A program made the translations under genes and the position numbers. This document shows, piece by piece, positions 38,413-47,669 of a stretch of DNA of 64,000 nucleotides. The notes under the pieces were generated by a model, which saw only the letters and a list, made by a program, of their open reading frames with translations, was not told the DNA's origin and did no database searches. This DNA comes from Stieleria magnilauensis (lineage in GTDB: Bacteria > Planctomycetota > Planctomycetia > Pirellulales > Pirellulaceae): NCBI GenBank assembly GCA_007753675.1, contig CP036432.1, forward strand, positions 3,384,394-3,448,393, given 5' to 3'. Position 1 is the stretch's first letter; every line of letters begins with the position of its first letter.

Positions 38413-39100
38413 TGACTCAACCGCGCCGTTTTTCAATCACGTTGGCAGATTGCTGACGGCCCCGGGCTTCGATCAACCGTCGGTCGACTCCAGCCGAAGA
38501 ATCCGCCACCGGGCAGCCATCCCCAACGGTGATGGCTTTCCGCGATGCCTCTGATTCTGACGAGCTTGCCGATTCTCGGTGCCGTCAAACGACTATCGAG
38601 TTTCACGCACGCTGCGGCCGCTCGACGCTGCTGCGGAACTCGGCAATTCGTTCGAAACTCGCCCATTATTTAGACTATTTAACAGCTCAACGGGGACCGT
38701 AAACAGCAACCCGTGAACCGTCGAGATGACGATCTGGGGAGATGGCTGGCCGTTAGACGCCGCTTGTGGGATGATCGTGCTCATTTGTGATCTCGCTTCC
38801 GATTGAGAGTAGAATCCGATAATGGCTTATCGGCAATCGCCACGCAACATTCATTCCATTCTTGAGATCAACTGCGGAAATCCCCAAAACAGGCTCCGAC
38901 GCGGCCGGCCGGGTGAATCAATGCGGGCGCCGACACAGCGGGAATCCCCCCAGCTTCTCTTGCACTGAACGGACGATCCCGATGAAATGTGCGAATGTGT
39001 CAATGCTCCGTTCCCCTGCGACCACCTGCACAGTGTCAAACGCTGCGCCAACCCCAGCACAGCGCCGATGCCCACACCCATTCCTCTCGATGCAACGTTG
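38413..39100. other. 688 bases with at most one small gene
   Basis: Between the export lipoprotein and the RimB-like gene. Apart from a 63-codon frame on the minus strand (38593-38784) nothing gene-like is seen, and there is no strong hairpin or repeat. Confidence 0.35.
38593..38784 (-). CDS. possible small protein
   Basis: 63 codons (MSTIIPQAASNGQPSPQIVI, then a hydrophobic part VHGLLFTVPVELLNSL and a polar tail). The codon use is compatible with a gene, but the ribosome site is weak and no homologue is recognised. It could be spurious. Confidence 0.3.
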   Translation of the reverse strand: MSTIIPQAASNGQPSPQIVISTVHGLLFTVPVELLNSLNNGRVSNELPSSAAASSGRSVRETR

Positions 39101-39562
39101 ATGACCGACAAAACCAGCCTGCCGATCATTGGTTGGCGTGAATGGATTGCTCTGCCCGATTTGGGCATCAAGTTTATCAAAGCCAAAATCGATACCGGGG
39201 CACGCTCCTCGTCGCTGCACGCGTTCGACATCGAAGTGTTTGAAAAAGACGACGAGCAATGGGCGCGATTCAAAGTGAACCCGGTGCAGCGAAACGAAAC
39301 CTGGGAGATCGAATCGACCGCCCCGGTGATCGACATGCGTGCGATCCGCAGTTCGAGCGGCCAATCCGAAGTCCGCCCGGTGGTGAAAACGACGGTGCGG
39401 TTGATGGGCCAACAATTCGACATCGAGTTGACGTTGGCCGATCGTAACCAGATGGGGTTTCGCATGCTGCTCGGCCGCGAAGCCTTTCGTCGACGCTTTT
39501 TGATCGACCCGGGAAAGTCCTACCGCGGAGGCATCCCGAAAAAGCGAAAACGCCAACCCTGA
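39101..39562 (+). CDS. RimB-like retropepsin-type protease (ATP-dependent zinc protease family)
   Basis: 153 residues. The active-site motif AKIDTGARSSSLHAF has the Asp-Thr-Gly of a retropepsin-like aspartic fold; the second half has GQQFDIELTLADRNQMGFRMLLGREAF. This is the family annotated as ATP-dependent zinc protease or RimB, whose genes often sit beside rimK. RimB-type proteins cleave poly-glutamate tails or modulate RimK in other bacteria. A Met at 39068 is an alternative start. It lies 148 bases before rimK on the same strand. Confidence 0.85.
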   Translation: MTDKTSLPIIGWREWIALPDLGIKFIKAKIDTGARSSSLHAFDIEVFEKDDEQWARFKVNPVQRNETWEIESTAPVIDMRAIRSSSGQSEVRPVVKTTVRLMGQQFDIELTLADRNQMGFRMLLGREAFRRRFLIDPGKSYRGGIPKKRKRQP

Positions 39563-39710
39563 TTGACCGCCTGGTACTTTCACTCAGCCTCTTTTAACAC
39601 AGCCTCTTTCAATACAGCGTCCCGTCACTCGGCAAGCTCTCCGATTTTCATGCCGCCCGGCTAGACCTGTCGTCGGCCCCTCAAACACTCACTCCACCCG
39701 CACTGGTTTC

Positions 39711-40958
39711 ATGAAACTCGGAATCCTTTCCTGCAGTCCGCGAGCTTACAGCACGCGTCGGTTACGCGAGGCGGCGGATCAACGTGGCCACCAGGTCAAG
39801 GTGCTCGATACATTGAAATTCGCGATCGACTTGGAACGCGGCGCACCAGATCTGTATTTTCGCCGCAAACACCTCAGCGATTATGATGCAATCCTGCCCC
39901 GAATCGGAGCGTCGATCACCTACTACGGGACCGCGGTCGTTCGACAGTTCGAACAGATGAACGTGTTTTCGGCCAACAGTTCCTCCGGCATCGCCAATTC
40001 GCGCGACAAGCTCCGCAGTCTGCAGATCCTCAGCCGGCACCAAATTGGAATTCCCCGCACCACCTTTGTGCGCGACAAACGCGACGTATTCCCGGCCATC
40101 GAGCGGGTCGGGGGCGCGCCGGTGATCATCAAGTTGCTCGAGGGAACGCAAGGGATCGGCGTGTTGCTGGCCGAGACGATTCAATCGGCCGAAACCATCG
40201 TCGAGCTATTGCAGAGCCAAAACCAAAACGTGCTGATTCAAAAGTTTGTCGCCGAAAGCAAGGGCCGCGACATTCGGGCGTTTGTCGTCGGCGATCAAGT
40301 GATTGCGGCGATGCGGCGGGTCGCCCAGGGACACGAATTTCGCAGCAACGTTCATCGCGGCGGCATGACCGAAGCGATTGAATTGGACGAGGAGTATCGC
40401 AACACGGCGTTGCGGGCCACCCAAATCATGGGGCTGCGCGTCGCCGGAGTCGACATGTTGGAAGGCCGCGACGGTCCCCAGATCATGGAAATCAATTCTT
40501 CGCCGGGACTCGAGGGCATCGAACGCTGCACCCAATTGGACATCGCCGGCGCGATCGTCGACCACATCGCGTCGCACGTCGATTTCCCCGAAATCGATCT
40601 GCGGCAACGGTTGACGGTCAGCCGCGGGTACGGCGTGACCGAAATCAGTATCCCCGAGGGGGCTGACATGATCGGTTCGACGATCGCCAGCAGCGGGTTG
40701 ATGGACAATCATGTCAACGTGCTGACGCTGTATCGCGATGCCGCGGTGATCCCCAACCCCCGCGGCGATCGTGAACTGCAAGCCGGCGATCGTCTGCTCT
40801 GTTTCGGTAAACTTGAAACCCTTCGTCATCTGGTGCCCAAGAAGACCCGTCGACGCCGCTGCCCGACGGTGAAAGAATTGCCGGAATTGCCGGTCGCCAA
40901 CCAGGTTCACGACCACCACGACGATGCCGTCGTCGAAACGATGCGGGAAGCGATCTGA
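39711..40958 (+). CDS. RimK-type ATP-grasp ligase fused to a TrkA-C (RCK_C) domain
   Basis: 415 residues. Residues 1-295 align in pattern with RimK: RimK_N start MKLGILSCSPRAYSTRRLRE, then PRIGASITYYG, ARDKLRS-like SRDKLRSLQIL, the ATP-grasp VIIKLLEGTQGIGV, the RSNVHRGG loop and the Mg ligands MEINSSPGLEGIE. RimK adds glutamate to ribosomal protein S6 C-termini. About residues 305-375 form an added regulatory TrkA-C domain (GVTEISIPEGADMIGSTIAS ... ELQAGDRLLCFG), which normally gates K+ transport proteins. A basic tail follows. E. coli RimK is about 300 residues, so this is an unusual fusion. The next gene is a cation antiporter with TrkA-N. Confidence 0.9.
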   Translation: MKLGILSCSPRAYSTRRLREAADQRGHQVKVLDTLKFAIDLERGAPDLYFRRKHLSDYDAILPRIGASITYYGTAVVRQFEQMNVFSANSSSGIANSRDKLRSLQILSRHQIGIPRTTFVRDKRDVFPAIERVGGAPVIIKLLEGTQGIGVLLAETIQSAETIVELLQSQNQNVLIQKFVAESKGRDIRAFVVGDQVIAAMRRVAQGHEFRSNVHRGGMTEAIELDEEYRNTALRATQIMGLRVAGVDMLEGRDGPQIMEINSSPGLEGIERCTQLDIAGAIVDHIASHVDFPEIDLRQRLTVSRGYGVTEISIPEGADMIGSTIASSGLMDNHVNVLTLYRDAAVIPNPRGDRELQAGDRLLCFGKLETLRHLVPKKTRRRRCPTVKELPELPVANQVHDHHDDAVVETMREAI

Positions 40959-41028
40959 ATGATCCAACCGAGCCATTGATCCGGCGCCCCACACACGACC
41001 CCACTGACTGCTGATGGAATGATGGCCG

Positions 41029-42876
41029 ATGGATTTCCTGTTCTACCTCGCGTTGATTCCTGCCCTGGCGGTCGCCGCCCAGTGGCTCGCCTGGCGCACC
41101 AACCTGCCCGGCATCCTGCTGCTGTTGTTGATCGGGGTCGCCGTCGGCGGGTTGTCCCGCCCGGATGATTTGTTGGCCGATTTGGTCGACGGTGATCCAA
41201 CCATTACCGGACCGCGAATCCTCTTTCCGCTGGTCTCGCTGGCCGTCGCCGTGATCATGCTCGAAGGCGGTTTGTCGCTCAAACTCAGCGAACTCCGCGA
41301 GGCGGGGTCACCCGCATTTCGCCTTTGCACGCTCGGTGCCGCGGTGACCGCGATCGCCGCCACGATCGCAGCCCATTTCTGTTTCGACTTCACCTGGCGG
41401 CTGAGCGCCCTTCTCGGTGCGATCCTGGTCGTCACCGGCCCGACGGTGATCGGACCACTGCTGCACCAAGTCAAACCGAGCCGTCGTGTCGCCAACACGC
41501 TGAAATGGGAAGGCATCGTGATCGACCCGATCGGAGCCGTGTTGGCCGTTCTGGTGTTCGAAATCTTACTGCTTCACCCGGGCAAAGCCGACTTGGGGCA
41601 CGGCGTGATGCTGTTGGGATGGACCGTCCTGGTCGGAGCCGTGTTGGGCGCACTGGGCGGCTGGGTGCTCACCCATGGCATTCGCCGCTACCTGATTCCC
41701 GATCACCTTCACGGCGTCGTGTCGCTGACGACCGCCCTGTTGCTGTTCGCCGTCAGCGACCACTTCGCTCATGAGTCCGGACTGATCACCGTCACCGTGC
41801 TGGGAATCTGGTTGACCAATCAGCATGAGTTTGACATCGAACACATCATCGAATTCCAAGAGAACCTGCGGACGTTGCTGATCGGTTGTTTGTTCATCGT
41901 GCTCGGTTCGCGGGTCGACATCAGCGCGGTCGGACAGGTCGGCTGGGCGGGCTTGCTTTTCGTCGCCCTGCTGATCGTTCTGGTCCGTCCGCTGAGTGTC
42001 TTTGTGTCCTTGCTCGGCAGTGGTCTCAATTTTCGCGAGCAGACGTTTATCGCGATGCTCGCCCCGCGGGGGATCGTTGCCGCCGCGGTCAGCAGCATCT
42101 TTGCACTGCGGATCGAGCAAACGGCCGAAATCAGTTTGTCCGGCGCCGATCAACTGGCGACCATCACGTTCCTGGTCATCATCAGCACCGTGGCCTTCTA
42201 TGGCCTGTTGGCGTCACCCATCGCCCAGGCGCTCGGGCTGTCCGACCCCAACCGGAACGGCGTGCTGATTGCGGGCGCCGATGACTGGGTGATTCGGTTT
42301 GCATTGGAATTGAAAAAAGCGGGTTGTCCCGTCGTCATGATCGATACCAACTATCGCAAAGTCACCAAGGCCAAGCTGGAGGGGCTGGAAGCGATCTGTG
42401 CCAACATCATGAACGAACACGCCCGTGACGAGCTTTCGCTTTCCGGGATCGGACACATGATGGCCATGACGCCCAACGACGAAGTCAACAGCCTGGCCGT
42501 CCGCGAGTGCCGATCGATTTTCGGACGGGCCAAGACGTACCAGCTGACATTCAAATCAGACAACCGACGCGGCATGACGCGGCACCTGATGGGACGCGAA
42601 CTCTTCGACGCCACCCTCACCCACTCCAAAATCAGCCAACTGGTCGCGCAAGGATTCGAATTCAAGACCACGGCAATCAGCGACGAATTCACCTTCCAGG
42701 ACTTTCAGAACCTGTATGCTGAGCAACACGTCCTGGCAATCATCACCGACAAGACGCCGCAGAACAACGAGAGAATGTCGCTGACGCTGGTCACCGCCGA
42801 TGAAGCCGCCGAGCCCAAACCGGGAGACGCCGTGCTCGCATTGGTCAATCCGCTGCAATCAGACCCGGCGTCCTGA
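41029..42876 (+). CDS. CPA-type cation/proton antiporter with TrkA-N domain
   Basis: 615 residues. Residues 1-400 form about twelve membrane helices of the NhaP/KefC-like Na+(K+)/H+ exchanger fold, with the ion-site helix VIDPIGAVLAVLVFE and LAPRGIVAAAVSSIFAL. A cytosolic TrkA-N (RCK_N) Rossmann domain follows at about 410-520 (GVLIAGADDWVIRFALELKKAGCPVVMIDTN is its start), then a poorly conserved C-terminal part (AISDEFTFQDFQNLYAEQHV) that may be a degenerate RCK_C. The substrate ion (K+ or Na+) is not certain. It starts 70 bases after the RimK-TrkA-C gene, so the two are probably in one operon. Confidence 0.88.
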   Translation: MDFLFYLALIPALAVAAQWLAWRTNLPGILLLLLIGVAVGGLSRPDDLLADLVDGDPTITGPRILFPLVSLAVAVIMLEGGLSLKLSELREAGSPAFRLCTLGAAVTAIAATIAAHFCFDFTWRLSALLGAILVVTGPTVIGPLLHQVKPSRRVANTLKWEGIVIDPIGAVLAVLVFEILLLHPGKADLGHGVMLLGWTVLVGAVLGALGGWVLTHGIRRYLIPDHLHGVVSLTTALLLFAVSDHFAHESGLITVTVLGIWLTNQHEFDIEHIIEFQENLRTLLIGCLFIVLGSRVDISAVGQVGWAGLLFVALLIVLVRPLSVFVSLLGSGLNFREQTFIAMLAPRGIVAAAVSSIFALRIEQTAEISLSGADQLATITFLVIISTVAFYGLLASPIAQALGLSDPNRNGVLIAGADDWVIRFALELKKAGCPVVMIDTNYRKVTKAKLEGLEAICANIMNEHARDELSLSGIGHMMAMTPNDEVNSLAVRECRSIFGRAKTYQLTFKSDNRRGMTRHLMGRELFDATLTHSKISQLVAQGFEFKTTAISDEFTFQDFQNLYAEQHVLAIITDKTPQNNERMSLTLVTADEAAEPKPGDAVLALVNPLQSDPAS

Positions 42877-43078: not shown

Positions 43079-45538
43079 GTGGACGGTTTCGAAGACATCA
43101 TCAAGGAATTCCTCGTCGAGAGTTACGAGAATCTCGACAAGCTTGACGATGATCTGCTCGCCCTGGAAGACGCGCCGGACGATCAGCAACGGCTGGCCAG
43201 CGTGTTCCGCACCGTTCACACCATCAAGGGAACCTGCGGATTCCTCGCACTGCCCAAGTTGGAACGCGTCACCCACGTCGGTGAAAATCTGTTGGTCCCG
43301 CTCCGCGACGGCGAACTGACGCTCACCCGCCCGATCGCCGACACCCTGCTGGAAATGGTTGACGCGATTCGCGCGATGCTGCGGCAAGTCGAATCCGGCC
43401 AAGGCGAGGGCGATGACGATTACGAGCCACTCGTCGCCCGCCTGGAAGCCGCGCGGACGCAACCGACAGCGACGACGGTCGATCCGCCGACGGCGCCCCT
43501 TGAGGGTGGACCGACAGCGACGGGTGCAGGGCCGACAGCGGCGTATGCGCCCCAGTCGGCCGCACCGATCGTCAGCGAACCGATCGTGTCGATCGCGGAT
43601 CAACCCCCATCCGAAAACTCGGCGACGACCTCACAAGCCAGTGACACGGTTGCGGCAGACGCTGCGTCCGGAACAGACTGCGACAACGCCGCCGAATCCC
43701 CCCTCCATCACCCGGCAGCACCCGAACCGGCAACACCCAAACCGGCAGCACCTCGCGACGCGGCGCCCGAACAAGCGAACTCCGAGCGCGCCCGTTCCGA
43801 CTGGAAAGACGCTTCCGGCGTGACGAAAACCGAAGCGTCACTGGTCGATGCCTCGGTACGTTTGGATGTCGAACTGTTGGACAAATTGGTCAATCTGGTC
43901 GGTGAACTGGTGCTCGCCCGAAATCAGATCGTTCAATTCAGTCGGTCCACCGACGACGCTCCCATGCACGCCGCGGCCCAGCGGCTCAACCAGATCACCA
44001 GCGAACTGCAAGAAGGCGTCATGAAGACGCGGATGCAGCCGATCCGCAACGCATGGGGAAAACTGCCTCGCTTGGTTCGCGACCTCGCCGCTTCCCACGG
44101 CAAGCAGATTGATATCCGCATGGAAGGCGAAGAGACGGAGGTCGACAAGACGGTTTTGGAAGCGATCAAGGATCCGTTGACCCATATCGTTCGCAACGTG
44201 GTCGATCACGGCATCGAACTGCCCGAGCGCCGCATCGCCTGCGGAAAACCACCGCGGGGCGTCTTACATCTCAATGCCTTTCATGAAGGCGGCCAGATGA
44301 TCATCGAGATCAGCGATGATGGGGGCGGCATCGATACCAACATCGTTCGCGCCAAAGCCATCGAACGGGGAATGATTTCAAGTCGGCGGGCGTCCACGCT
44401 CAGCGAAAGTGACATCACCCATTTGATTTTTTTGCCGGGGTTCTCCACCGCCGCTTCGGTCACGAACGTTTCCGGCCGCGGAGTCGGGATGGATGTCGTC
44501 AAGACAAACATCGAATGCATCGGCGGAAGCTTGGAGATTCAAAGCACGCTCGGCTTGGGAACGACGTTGCGAATCAAGATCCCGCTGACGTTGGCCATCA
44601 TCCCCGTGCTGCTGGTCACGACCGAGGGAGATCGTTACGCGATTCCGCAAGCCAGTCTGCTCGAATTGGTTCACATCGACAGCCTGCGCGCGCACCAGGA
44701 AATTGAATTCATCCACGATACTCCCTTGTTCCGGCTTCGCGAACAACTGTTGCCGTTGATCTACTTGGATGAACAACTGGGGCTTCACCCGCCGCGGCGG
44801 CGGGGCGATCCGCCGTCCGACCTAAATATCGTCGTGCTCTATGCCGATGGTCACCAATTTGGTTTGGTCGTCGATGAGATCACCGACACTCAGGAGATCG
44901 TCATCAAGCCGCTCGGCTCGCATTTCAAAGAGATTCCCGTCTATGCCGGGGCAACCATCATGGGTGATGGAAAAATCTGTTTGATCTTGGATCTGATCGG
45001 CTTGGCCCAGAACGGCGGCATCACCGGAGGACAGGCCGAACGCAACACGCCGATTGCACAGCCTCCATGGCACTCGAATGAATCGTCCAGCGAATCGCTG
45101 TTGATCGTCGATTTGGGGGACGAATCACGCGTCGCGATCCCGTTGTCGTCGGTCGCACGCCTGGAGAAATTCGTGTCATCGGACATTGAACGACTGGGCG
45201 ACTTCCATGTCGTTCAATACCGCGGTCAAACCATTCCGCTGTTCTCCATCGACGGGTCGCTGGAGTGTCAACTCGTTGATTTTTCATCCCAGCACCTGGG
45301 CTTAGAGGCTCCGTTGCACACGGTTGTCTTCCGTGACGGCGACCGTGTCGCGGGGATCGTCGTGAAAAAAATCTTGGACATCCTGCACGACCAACCGGTC
45401 CACGCCGAACCCGAAGGCGGTCAGGCAGGCGCCGCGAGGCATCTGGTGATCCAGCAACGCGTCACCCGCATCATTGACTTGGAGACGTTTCTGCGATCGT
45501 CCTTGCGGCGTTGGGCCGACGCCTGGTCCGCCGCCTAG
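43079..45538 (+). CDS. cheA: chemotaxis histidine kinase CheA with two CheW-like domains
   Basis: 819 residues from a GTG start. P1/HPt at 1-110 with the phospho-acceptor His47 (TVHTIKG). A Pro/Ala/Thr-rich linker covers about 125-255 with no clear P2 domain. P3 dimerisation (VELLDKLVNLVGELVLARNQ) leads into the P4 ATPase (DPLTHIVRNVVDHGIE, ISDDGGGID, GRGVGMDVVKTNI). The C-terminus has two CheW/P5-like domains in tandem, the first IPVLLVTTEGDRYAIPQASL onward, the second from ESLLIVDLGDESRVAIPLSS. It phosphorylates CheY and CheB in response to receptor arrays. It is the first gene of the chemosensory cluster. Confidence 0.94.
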   Translation: MDGFEDIIKEFLVESYENLDKLDDDLLALEDAPDDQQRLASVFRTVHTIKGTCGFLALPKLERVTHVGENLLVPLRDGELTLTRPIADTLLEMVDAIRAMLRQVESGQGEGDDDYEPLVARLEAARTQPTATTVDPPTAPLEGGPTATGAGPTAAYAPQSAAPIVSEPIVSIADQPPSENSATTSQASDTVAADAASGTDCDNAAESPLHHPAAPEPATPKPAAPRDAAPEQANSERARSDWKDASGVTKTEASLVDASVRLDVELLDKLVNLVGELVLARNQIVQFSRSTDDAPMHAAAQRLNQITSELQEGVMKTRMQPIRNAWGKLPRLVRDLAASHGKQIDIRMEGEETEVDKTVLEAIKDPLTHIVRNVVDHGIELPERRIACGKPPRGVLHLNAFHEGGQMIIEISDDGGGIDTNIVRAKAIERGMISSRRASTLSESDITHLIFLPGFSTAASVTNVSGRGVGMDVVKTNIECIGGSLEIQSTLGLGTTLRIKIPLTLAIIPVLLVTTEGDRYAIPQASLLELVHIDSLRAHQEIEFIHDTPLFRLREQLLPLIYLDEQLGLHPPRRRGDPPSDLNIVVLYADGHQFGLVVDEITDTQEIVIKPLGSHFKEIPVYAGATIMGDGKICLILDLIGLAQNGGITGGQAERNTPIAQPPWHSNESSSESLLIVDLGDESRVAIPLSSVARLEKFVSSDIERLGDFHVVQYRGQTIPLFSIDGSLECQLVDFSSQHLGLEAPLHTVVFRDGDRVAGIVVKKILDILHDQPVHAEPEGGQAGAARHLVIQQRVTRIIDLETFLRSSLRRWADAWSAA

Positions 45539-45565
45539 CACAACAAACACCTTCGATCACGCCAT

Positions 45566-46030
45566 TTGAAAAACATCATGTACACCACCACGCTCACCCG
45601 GCCGGAATCCTATTGCACCTTTTTGGTCGATGGGCTGTTGTATGGCATCGAAGTCCAGAAGGTCCAGGAAGTCATACGAGCTCAGCCGACCACACGCGTC
45701 CCGTTGGCCCCTCAAGTCGTGCGTGGCCTGATGAATCTGCGCGGCCACATTGTCAGCATGTTGAGCCTACGCAAGGCACTGGGATTGCCGGCCCGTTCCA
45801 GCGACAGCCATGAGATGAGTGTCATCATTCGTTCCAGCGAAGGCCCGGTCGGTTTACTGGTTGATGAAATCGGTGACGTGATGCGGGTTGATCAGGCGGA
45901 CTGCGAATCGGTGCCCGGCACGCTGCACCGCCGGCAGCGTCCGTTCTTGCGATGTGCCTACAAACTGGAACAACGATTGTTGCTGATCCTCGATGCCGAT
46001 CGCGTCGCCACCGCCACCGCCACTGATTGA
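45566..46030 (+). CDS. cheW: CheW coupling protein
   Basis: 154 residues forming a single CheW domain: [21 protein letters not shown], the receptor-facing [23 protein letters not shown], and [15 protein letters not shown]. It links the receptor tip to CheA in the array. Starts 27 bases after cheA and precedes the receptor gene. Confidence 0.95.
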
Positions 46031-46094
46031 CGTTGACGTCATCACCACCTGCCCAAGCTACCGTTCAATCTTCACGCCGGAAAGGAATAGTTTC

Positions 46095-47669
46095 GTGTCC
46101 TTCAATCGCCTCACCGTTCGCTCCAAAATCTTCATCCTTGTCGGTGCCTGTGCACTCTCCTTTGTCGGTTACGGATTGTGGTCTTGGAATACGTTGTCGG
46201 TGGCCAAAGTCCATGGCCCCTATTACAACAGAATCATTCAGGGGAAGGATTTGATTTCGGACACGGTTCCGCCTTCCAACAACCTCATCGAATCCTATCT
46301 GCTGTCGCTCGAAATGGCCCACGAGGTGGAAGAGGGTGTCGGTGCGGAACAGATTCAGCAACTGGTTCAACGCGGCATCGAATTGAAGCAGAAATTCGAA
46401 ACCAGTCATCGTTTCTGGGAACAGGAACTCGCCGAAGGACCGATGAAGAAGCTGAAAACGGTGGAGTGCTACGAAACGGCCAAGCAATTCTTTCGGGTCC
46501 GGGATCAGGACTTCGTGCCGGCTTGTTTGCGGGGGGATGTCAAATCGGCCAAATTGCTTTCTCGAGGCCCGATGCGGAAGCAGTACGAACAACATCGCGA
46601 CGCGGTCAATGCGGTCGCTTCGATGGCGACCCGTCGCAATGCGGCCGACGAAGCGGCTGTCCAAGCCCTAGTCGATGCGCGAATGCTGTGGTCGCTCGCC
46701 GGCGCCGCAGGCATTCTGTTGGGGATCGCCGGTTTTGGCATTTATGTCGCCCGCGAAACCATCCTGCCGCTGCGTCGCTCAGCGACCAACCTTCGTTACC
46801 TTTCAACCCACGACCTGACCGATGTCAGCCGGCGGCTGCGGCGGGATGCAGAGAACACCAGCGATCAAGCCACCATGGCCAGCGGGGCGGCCGAAGAGGT
46901 CAGCGCTAATGCGCATGCCTTGGCGACCGCCGTCGAGCAGTTCGAAGAAAGCATCAAAGAAATCGCCGCCAACGCGGCCAATGCCGCCTCGGTCGCCCGC
47001 AATGCCGTTTGCGCCACCGAACAAACCAACCAGACCATCACCCGTCTGGGCGAAAGCAGTGCGGAAATTGGCAACGTCATCAAGGTCATCAACTCGATCG
47101 CCCAACAAACCAACCTGTTGGCCCTCAATGCGACCATCGAAGCGGCCCGGGCCGGTGAGGCCGGCAAAGGCTTTGCCGTCGTCGCCAACGAAGTCAAGGA
47201 GCTTGCCAAAGAAACTAGTCGGGCGACCAAACACATCATCGGACGCATCGAAGCGATCCAAGCCGACACGCAAGAAGCGGTTAATGCGATCGGGTTGGTC
47301 AGCGAGATCATTCGCGAGATCGATGAAAGCCAGAACGTGATCGCCGGCGCCGTCGAAGAGCAAACGGCGATGACCTCGGAAATCTCGCGCAACATATCCG
47401 ACGTCGCAACCGGCAGCTATGAAATCGTCAAAAGCATCACGATGGTCGCCGAGACGGCGCAAAGCACAACCTCCGGCAGTGATGAAACCCTCGTGACCGC
47501 CGCCAGCATCGAACGGTTGGCCGCCGATTTGATGCTGCTGGTCGGGCAATCCGGTGAAGCGTCCGGACGCGAAACCTCAGAGCAAGACAGCGCATCAAAC
47601 CGAGGCGCCTCCGGTGGCAAGTATCGCTTGCCGGCCGCCAAAGAAGACGCGTTCCTGGAATCGCTCTAA
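46095..47669 (+). CDS. methyl-accepting chemotaxis protein
   Basis: 524 residues from a GTG with AAAGGA upstream. Two membrane helices (about residues 12-30 and 192-214) enclose a helical periplasmic sensor of about 160 residues, probably of the four-helix-bundle type. The cytosolic signalling domain has the hairpin tip [20 protein letters not shown] followed by [22 protein letters not shown]. The likely methylation region flanks it. No C-terminal CheR-tether pentapeptide is seen (it ends DAFLESL). The ligand is unknown. Confidence 0.93.

Follow-up and report, generated by a model that had tools for sequence, protein, structure and literature searches.

A RimK ligase fused to an RCK_C domain in Stieleria magnilauensis: a distinct clade with RimB and AstE-family neighbours and, at some loci, nearby ion-transport genes

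A stretch of 64,000 nucleotides of Stieleria magnilauensis (assembly GCA_007753675.1, contig CP036432.1, positions 3,384,394 to 3,448,393), referred to here as the window, was analysed; the host genome is a single contig of 10.77 Mb. An earlier note, made from the letters alone, had read positions 39101 to 42876 as three adjacent plus-strand genes for a RimB protease, a RimK ligase with an additional C-terminal TrkA-C (RCK_C) domain and an ion antiporter carrying TrkA-N. Pfam domain matches confirmed the three genes and their adjacency, as follows.

39101..39562, plus strand: RimB-type retropepsin-like peptidase, 153 amino acids from the ATG at 39101 (PF05618, E 1.4e-37)
39711..40610, plus strand: RimK ATP-grasp alpha-L-glutamate ligase part of the fusion, residues 1-300 (PF18030 at 1-94, PF08443 at 98-286)
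40635..40832, plus strand: TrkA_C / RCK_C domain on RimK, residues 309-374 (PF02080, E 4.9e-9)
41029..42876, plus strand: K+(Na+)/H+ antiporter with Na_H_Exchanger at 14-399, TrkA_N (RCK_N) at 412-504 and a C-terminal tail

The fusion gene occupies the whole frame 39711-40958 on the plus strand and is separated by 148 bp from RimB and by 70 bp from the antiporter. Its ligase part matched PF08443 with an E-value of 1.3e-59 together with Rimk_N (PF18030), the protein scored 261.9 bits against the RimK family model TIGR00768 (cut-off 143.4), and a search of PDB sequences returned the Pseudomonas RimK entries 7qyr and 7qys as top matches. The TrkA-C domain, which had been placed at about residues 305-375 of the ligase, was recovered by profile search at 309-374 with 36.4 bits, above the Pfam gathering cut-off of 27. 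The open frame of RimB starts at 38987, and the homologues called at other fusion loci are mostly about 150-180 amino acids long. The window protein is the sole PF05618 match in the whole genome, and the RimB model ranked first for it among NCBIfam models (E 9.9e-37), with 126 bits, below the cut-off of 200 and above the 81.8 bits obtained with RloA3. Within its active-site Asp motif, D-T-G-A, the D, G and A were each found in at least 95% of 61 homologues.

The RimK::TrkA-C fusion proved to be real and conserved. TrkA_C was matched at an E-value of 0.001 in all 65 fusion proteins scanned, the window protein included, and a profile built from 21 fused sequences matched the RCK_C domains of MthK (E 1.9e-4) and KtrA (E 0.0023), so that the fusion is not a chance match. 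By profile the domain is thus the same as in MthK and KtrA, but it sits on a peptide ligase without RCK_N, unlike the channel and transporter context of those two proteins. A scan of named genomes in which only the fused domain served as query yielded 169 confirmed places, the best 80 of which were taken further. Among these best 80, the closest named matches came from Rhodopirellula and Stieleria strains, and the phyla represented were Planctomycetota, Thermodesulfobacteriota, Pseudomonadota, Chloroflexota, Gemmatimonadota, Spirochaetota, Rhodothermota, Deferribacterota and one labelled Myxococcota; isolates carried the fusion in the first three of these nine phyla, and the other six were represented by metagenome-assembled genomes (MAGs) only. 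The alignment used for folding and Pfam comparison comprised the window fusion and 64 of the 74 full-length fusions, with identities to the window protein of 68-93%. Across all 65 sequences K100, K141, D248, E260 and N262, which we take to be catalytic residues, were invariant. The RimK::RCK_C frames at loci L078 and L079, on two MAG contigs, were broken, possibly through assembly errors, and both loci were excluded from the analysis.

RimK::RCK_C forms a single clade, separate from the sampled unfused RimKs. In a tree of the 74 fusions and 34 unfused RimKs (28 gammaproteobacterial, 6 planctomycete), the two types were divided by a single branch with support of 100/100 from a bootstrap that had not yet converged (correlation 0.969). 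A full-length fusion of about 70-100% identity was present in 20 of 60 related genomes, the host included, and five others held only an unfused RimK of about 46-53% identity. Among 185 genomes of one gammaproteobacterial class, RimK was found in 83, two of which carried the fusion (75-77% identity); the unfused gammaproteobacterial RimKs showed 42-54% identity to the window protein. No unfused member of the fusion clade was encountered in whole-protein searches of the 60 relatives and the 185 gammaproteobacterial genomes; the best-80 set had been found through the fused domain, a search that unfused members of the clade would escape. One gammaproteobacterium, G238, carries both a fused and an unfused RimK. 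Many unfused RimKs (L193-L220, L046-L051) stop at a short basic tail, for example T-R-G-K-G, where the fusions run on into RCK_C. Neither the RimK-RCK_C fusion nor a pairing of RimK with AstE was found reported in literature titles and abstract openings, a survey that left most full texts and the subscription journals uncovered.

For the gene neighbourhood, the 80 loci were reduced by near identity to 71 non-redundant ones, 50 of which have 3 kb of flanking sequence on both sides; the names of neighbour families rest on one member per family. Within 3 kb of the fusion, RimB was present at 44 of these 50 loci, an AstE/AspA-family hydrolase at 37 and the antiporter at one, and the most frequent order was RimB, RimK::RCK_C, AstE on a single strand. 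RimB is therefore a regular neighbour of the fusion, and of the conserved neighbourhood envisaged in the earlier note, the part comprising RimB and the fusion held while the antiporter part did not. The same triad was seen at most of the 28 unfused gammaproteobacterial RimK loci looked at (out of 83 matches; flanks of up to 1.5 kb), with RimB at 25, AstE at 23, CorA at 6 and MscS at one, which argues that RimB-RimK-AstE is a wider triad of which the RCK_C fusion is one branch.

The hydrolase carries H68, E71 and H153 (numbering of L032), each in at least 95% of 60 AstE proteins, a pattern shared with zinc hydrolases of the AstE/AspA family. A search of PDB sequences with one AstE protein found AstE/AspA and DoeB structures, and two of the proteins matched DoeB and aspartoacylase models, in both cases far under the cut-offs. 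These matches bear on a small-peptide cycle of the N-acetylaspartylglutamate type, in which RimK would add glutamate to an N-acyl amino acid, the peptidase would split the product and the AstE/AspA relative would deacylate it. DoeB is an N-acetyl-diaminobutyrate deacetylase of ectoine breakdown, and mammalian relatives of RimK make peptides of the N-acetylaspartylglutamate type; aspartoacylase, as described, splits N-acetylaspartate. The cycle is nevertheless considered improbable, since the only GNAT cluster seen occurred at 5 of 100 loci and RimB of Pseudomonas is reported to cut polyglutamate, besides stimulating poly-alpha-glutamate synthesis by RimK (PMC11957791).

In the earlier note, the fused TrkA-C had been taken as the missing half of an RCK pair whose other half is the antiporter's TrkA-N, so that the ligase and RimB would gate the antiporter directly. 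Consistent with this, the genes adjoin in eight genomes of the genus, and the antiporter has TrkA_N with no Pfam TrkA_C, either in the window protein or in any of the 29 antiporter C-terminal regions scanned (window included). Among the 60 relatives, however, 40 genomes held the antiporter and 20 the fusion, and the expected co-occurrence failed: both were present in 19 of the 40 antiporter genomes, adjacent in eight (all of one genus) and apart in 11, and 21 of the 40 had no fusion at all, while G012 had a fusion and no antiporter match. Genomes that lack the fusion also have the antiporter's C-terminal tail, which may be the antiporter's own RCK_C in diverged form. In a model of residues 404-615, of low confidence (mean predicted local distance difference test, pLDDT, 57.0), a beta-alpha-beta-beta-beta unit lay in the tail, and Foldseek aligned the model with TrkA, KtrA and GsuK chains over 225-242 columns with a best E-value of 1.9e-5, the TM-scores being only near 0.3 and the root-mean-square deviations 12-14 Å. 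With VIA-align the RCK rows spanned mainly the RCK_N half, and the tail and the fused RCK_C matched weakly when their profiles were compared. With the antiporter near just one of 50 fusion loci in addition, direct gating is judged very unlikely.

The antiporter beside the fusion looks like a local newcomer and not a built-in partner. The window and loci L052-L055 share the order RimB, RimK::RCK_C, antiporter, CheA, and in L044 and L056, of the same genus, the order is RimB, RimK::RCK_C, AstE, CheA; L061 also has the antiporter beside the fusion, and its contig ends there. In this genus CheA follows the module whichever of the two genes occupies the slot, and since the loci with AstE are followed by the same CheA, the antiporter probably moved into the AstE slot. 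Compared with the antiporter, the fusion clade with its neighbours is the better finding. By-eye names of the open reading frames past the antiporter in the window (43079-47669) were CheA-like kinase, CheW-like protein and methyl-accepting receptor-like protein.

The link to ion transport that the earlier note had drawn from the antiporter survived in another form. CorA, MgtE and MscS genes lie near the module at a minority of loci, yet far more often than by chance: at least one of them was within 3 kb of the fusion at 13 of the 50 non-redundant loci. Within 6 kb, 39 non-redundant loci showed CorA at eight, MgtE at eight and MscS at nine, against chance expectations of about 0.13 for CorA and about 0.6 for MscS; this set of loci was not hand-picked, and its expected values use the densities of 29 fusion genomes that were (163.27 Mb in total, with 40 CorA and 197 MscS-type matches). 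Counted outward from the fusion in shells of 2.5 kb at 37 loci, CorA, MgtE, MscS and CNNM genes together numbered 17, 8, 7 and 5. CorA lay within 10 kb of the fusion in 11 of the 29 genomes (10 of 24 named loci plus a second locus of the host genome; 0.17 expected, one locus each), a share that may be biased upwards because the genomes were chosen after the neighbour maps had been seen. The neighbour count drops any match overlapping a better one, and the CorA of L101, missed for this reason, was found separately. A YbdG-type MscS-like gene was recognised by eye about 2.3 kb from the fusion in G238 (L222, 12690-14045); as the tblastn scan overlooked it, the MscS counts may be low.

The second locus of the host genome (L032, L221; G000:C1:9572000-9605000) carries MscS, MscS, CorA, MgtE, AstE and RimK::RCK_C within about 22 kb. 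No RimB was found near this second fusion, the only PF05618 match of the genome lying in the window. Genes resembling a PP2C phosphatase and a Ser/Thr kinase were also noticed there by eye.

RimK is known as the enzyme that modifies ribosomal protein S6, with a puzzling poly-glutamate activity, and the fusion might simply carry out ordinary S6 glutamylation, with RCK_C as a dimerisation or regulatory add-on and the ion genes as bystanders. The window RimK scored 327.7 bits against PRK10446, the equivalog model for the 30S S6--L-glutamate ligase, just under its cut-off of 331, and RimK and RimB of Pseudomonas are reported to act on RpsF (PMC11957791). S6 C-termini could be read in 27 of the 29 fusion genomes, and nine of them end in Glu. 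Only five of these end in Glu-Glu, however, and S6 has no tail in three fusion genomes (two Spirochaetales, one Anaerolineae). The Glu tail that the earlier note had proposed to look for on S6 of the host itself is absent, this S6 ending in a Ser-Asp repeat with Ser as the last residue. The separation of the fusions from the unfused RimKs sampled, and the presence of both types in G238, also speak against the S6 explanation, which is regarded as fairly unlikely. S6 is unlikely to be a universal substrate of the fusion, because its tails vary among the fusion genomes. A similar judgement applies to cyclic di-AMP (c-di-AMP), which is unlikely to be a universal ligand of the fused RCK_C because a diadenylate cyclase domain was found in only 22 of the 29 genomes, the host included with three matches; it was not found in the other seven, four of them isolates. 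The regulator BusR carries an RCK_C (TrkA_C) domain.

From the observed architecture, clade, gene neighbours and ion-gene link, we propose that the window genes are one version of a widely distributed RimB-RimK-AstE module, which would build and cut glutamate chains under the control of a ligand, in the service of ionic or osmotic adaptation. RimK would build alpha-linked chains of glutamate, either free or attached to an acceptor, and RimB would stimulate RimK and cut the chains, as reported for their Pseudomonas counterparts and not for these proteins. The AstE/AspA-family hydrolase may finish the breakdown of the chains or free a capped end; both it and RimB are predicted to cleave glutamate chains or amides. 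The analogy with RCK_C domains in K+ channels and transporters makes it most likely that the fused domain has a small ligand or ion as its binding partner and would set the activity or assembly of the ligase. Ligand, product and role are read from sequence and context, and the proposal as a whole is held to be about evenly balanced between right and wrong. The conserved sensor-fused RimK clade, its hydrolase partner and its linkage to genes for Mg2+ and mechanosensitive channels point to an ionic or osmotic role that is testable at once.

Such a role is suggested by the clustering of ion genes near the module together with the strong induction of rimK that a marine bacterium shows when salinity is low. 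In the literature on salinity, K05844 is taken here to stand for rimK. K05844 and K03284 (the latter CorA, as backed by the CorA reference that the paper cites) are described as commoner in brackish than in marine genomes (PMC10219603), and in Photobacterium damselae at 1% NaCl rimK was reported up 52-fold and MgtE 5.35-fold (PMC10308900). These reports would fit RimK modules acting at low salinity; none of them is on the fused clade.

Several points weigh against a glutamate-chain module with an ionic or osmotic role. To our knowledge no ligand, product or phenotype has been described for any RimK::RCK_C. The Photobacterium authors themselves link the induction of rimK to protein synthesis (PMC10308900), and the RimK concerned is that of another organism and may be of either type, fused or unfused. 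No CorA, MgtE or MscS gene lay within 3 kb at 37 of the 50 loci, and the independent cases are fewer than the counts because related genomes, such as those of the gammaproteobacteria, share gene order. The AstE-type hydrolase, with its DoeB and aspartoacylase matches so far under the cut-offs, need not act on glutamate chains. At the window locus itself AstE is absent and an ion antiporter adjoins the fusion, an arrangement that direct gating predicts as well. The tree pairs the AstE-bearing L056 with the antiporter-bearing L061 (98/72), so AstE and antiporter may not have been exchanged in a single, simple step. Finally, the predicted structure of the fusion was of low confidence (mean pLDDT 62.5).

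A more specific version of the glutamate-chain proposal, rated quite unlikely in this detailed form, is that of an osmotic capacitor. On a drop in salt or external ions, a bound ligand or ion would switch RCK_C, and RimK::RCK_C would link up the cell's free glutamate, which is the chief partner of K+, to give poly-alpha-glutamate, leaving fewer osmotic particles while carbon and nitrogen are kept. Mg2+ imported by CorA or MgtE would take the place of K+ on the polyanion, and MscS channels and antiporters would dump the rest. With a rise in salt, RimB and the AstE-type hydrolase would return the polymer to glutamate.

The closest known systems share parts of the module. In RimABK of Pseudomonas, as in the window, an ATP-grasp ligase and a retropepsin-like RimB are encoded together (PMC11957791, PMC10092738, PMC7343187), but the partners described there are RimA and c-di-GMP (cyclic di-GMP), in place of the AstE and ion genes of the fusion module. 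That Pseudomonas RimK has no RCK_C follows from its solved chains of 309-314 residues, which match only residues 1-288 of the window protein; the fusions, for their part, stand in a clade of their own against the unfused RimKs included in the tree. RimB and RimK are tied together more closely still in the RimBK hybrid of Desulfotalea psychrophila, where both are reported in one protein, a RimB-RimK fusion in place of the RimK-RCK_C fusion of the window (PMC11957791). RloABC of Pseudomonas aeruginosa likewise combines a retropepsin with an ATP-grasp protein, and the Rlo retropepsins and their ATP-grasp partner are reported to affect hypo-osmotic tolerance; it differs in having a secreted RloA, whose operon also encodes the membrane protein RloB (PMC12239564). 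A transglutaminase-like gene adjoins the fusion at L108, L129 and L038 (PF01841 in L108), which is reminiscent of the rlo operon with its inactive transglutaminase.

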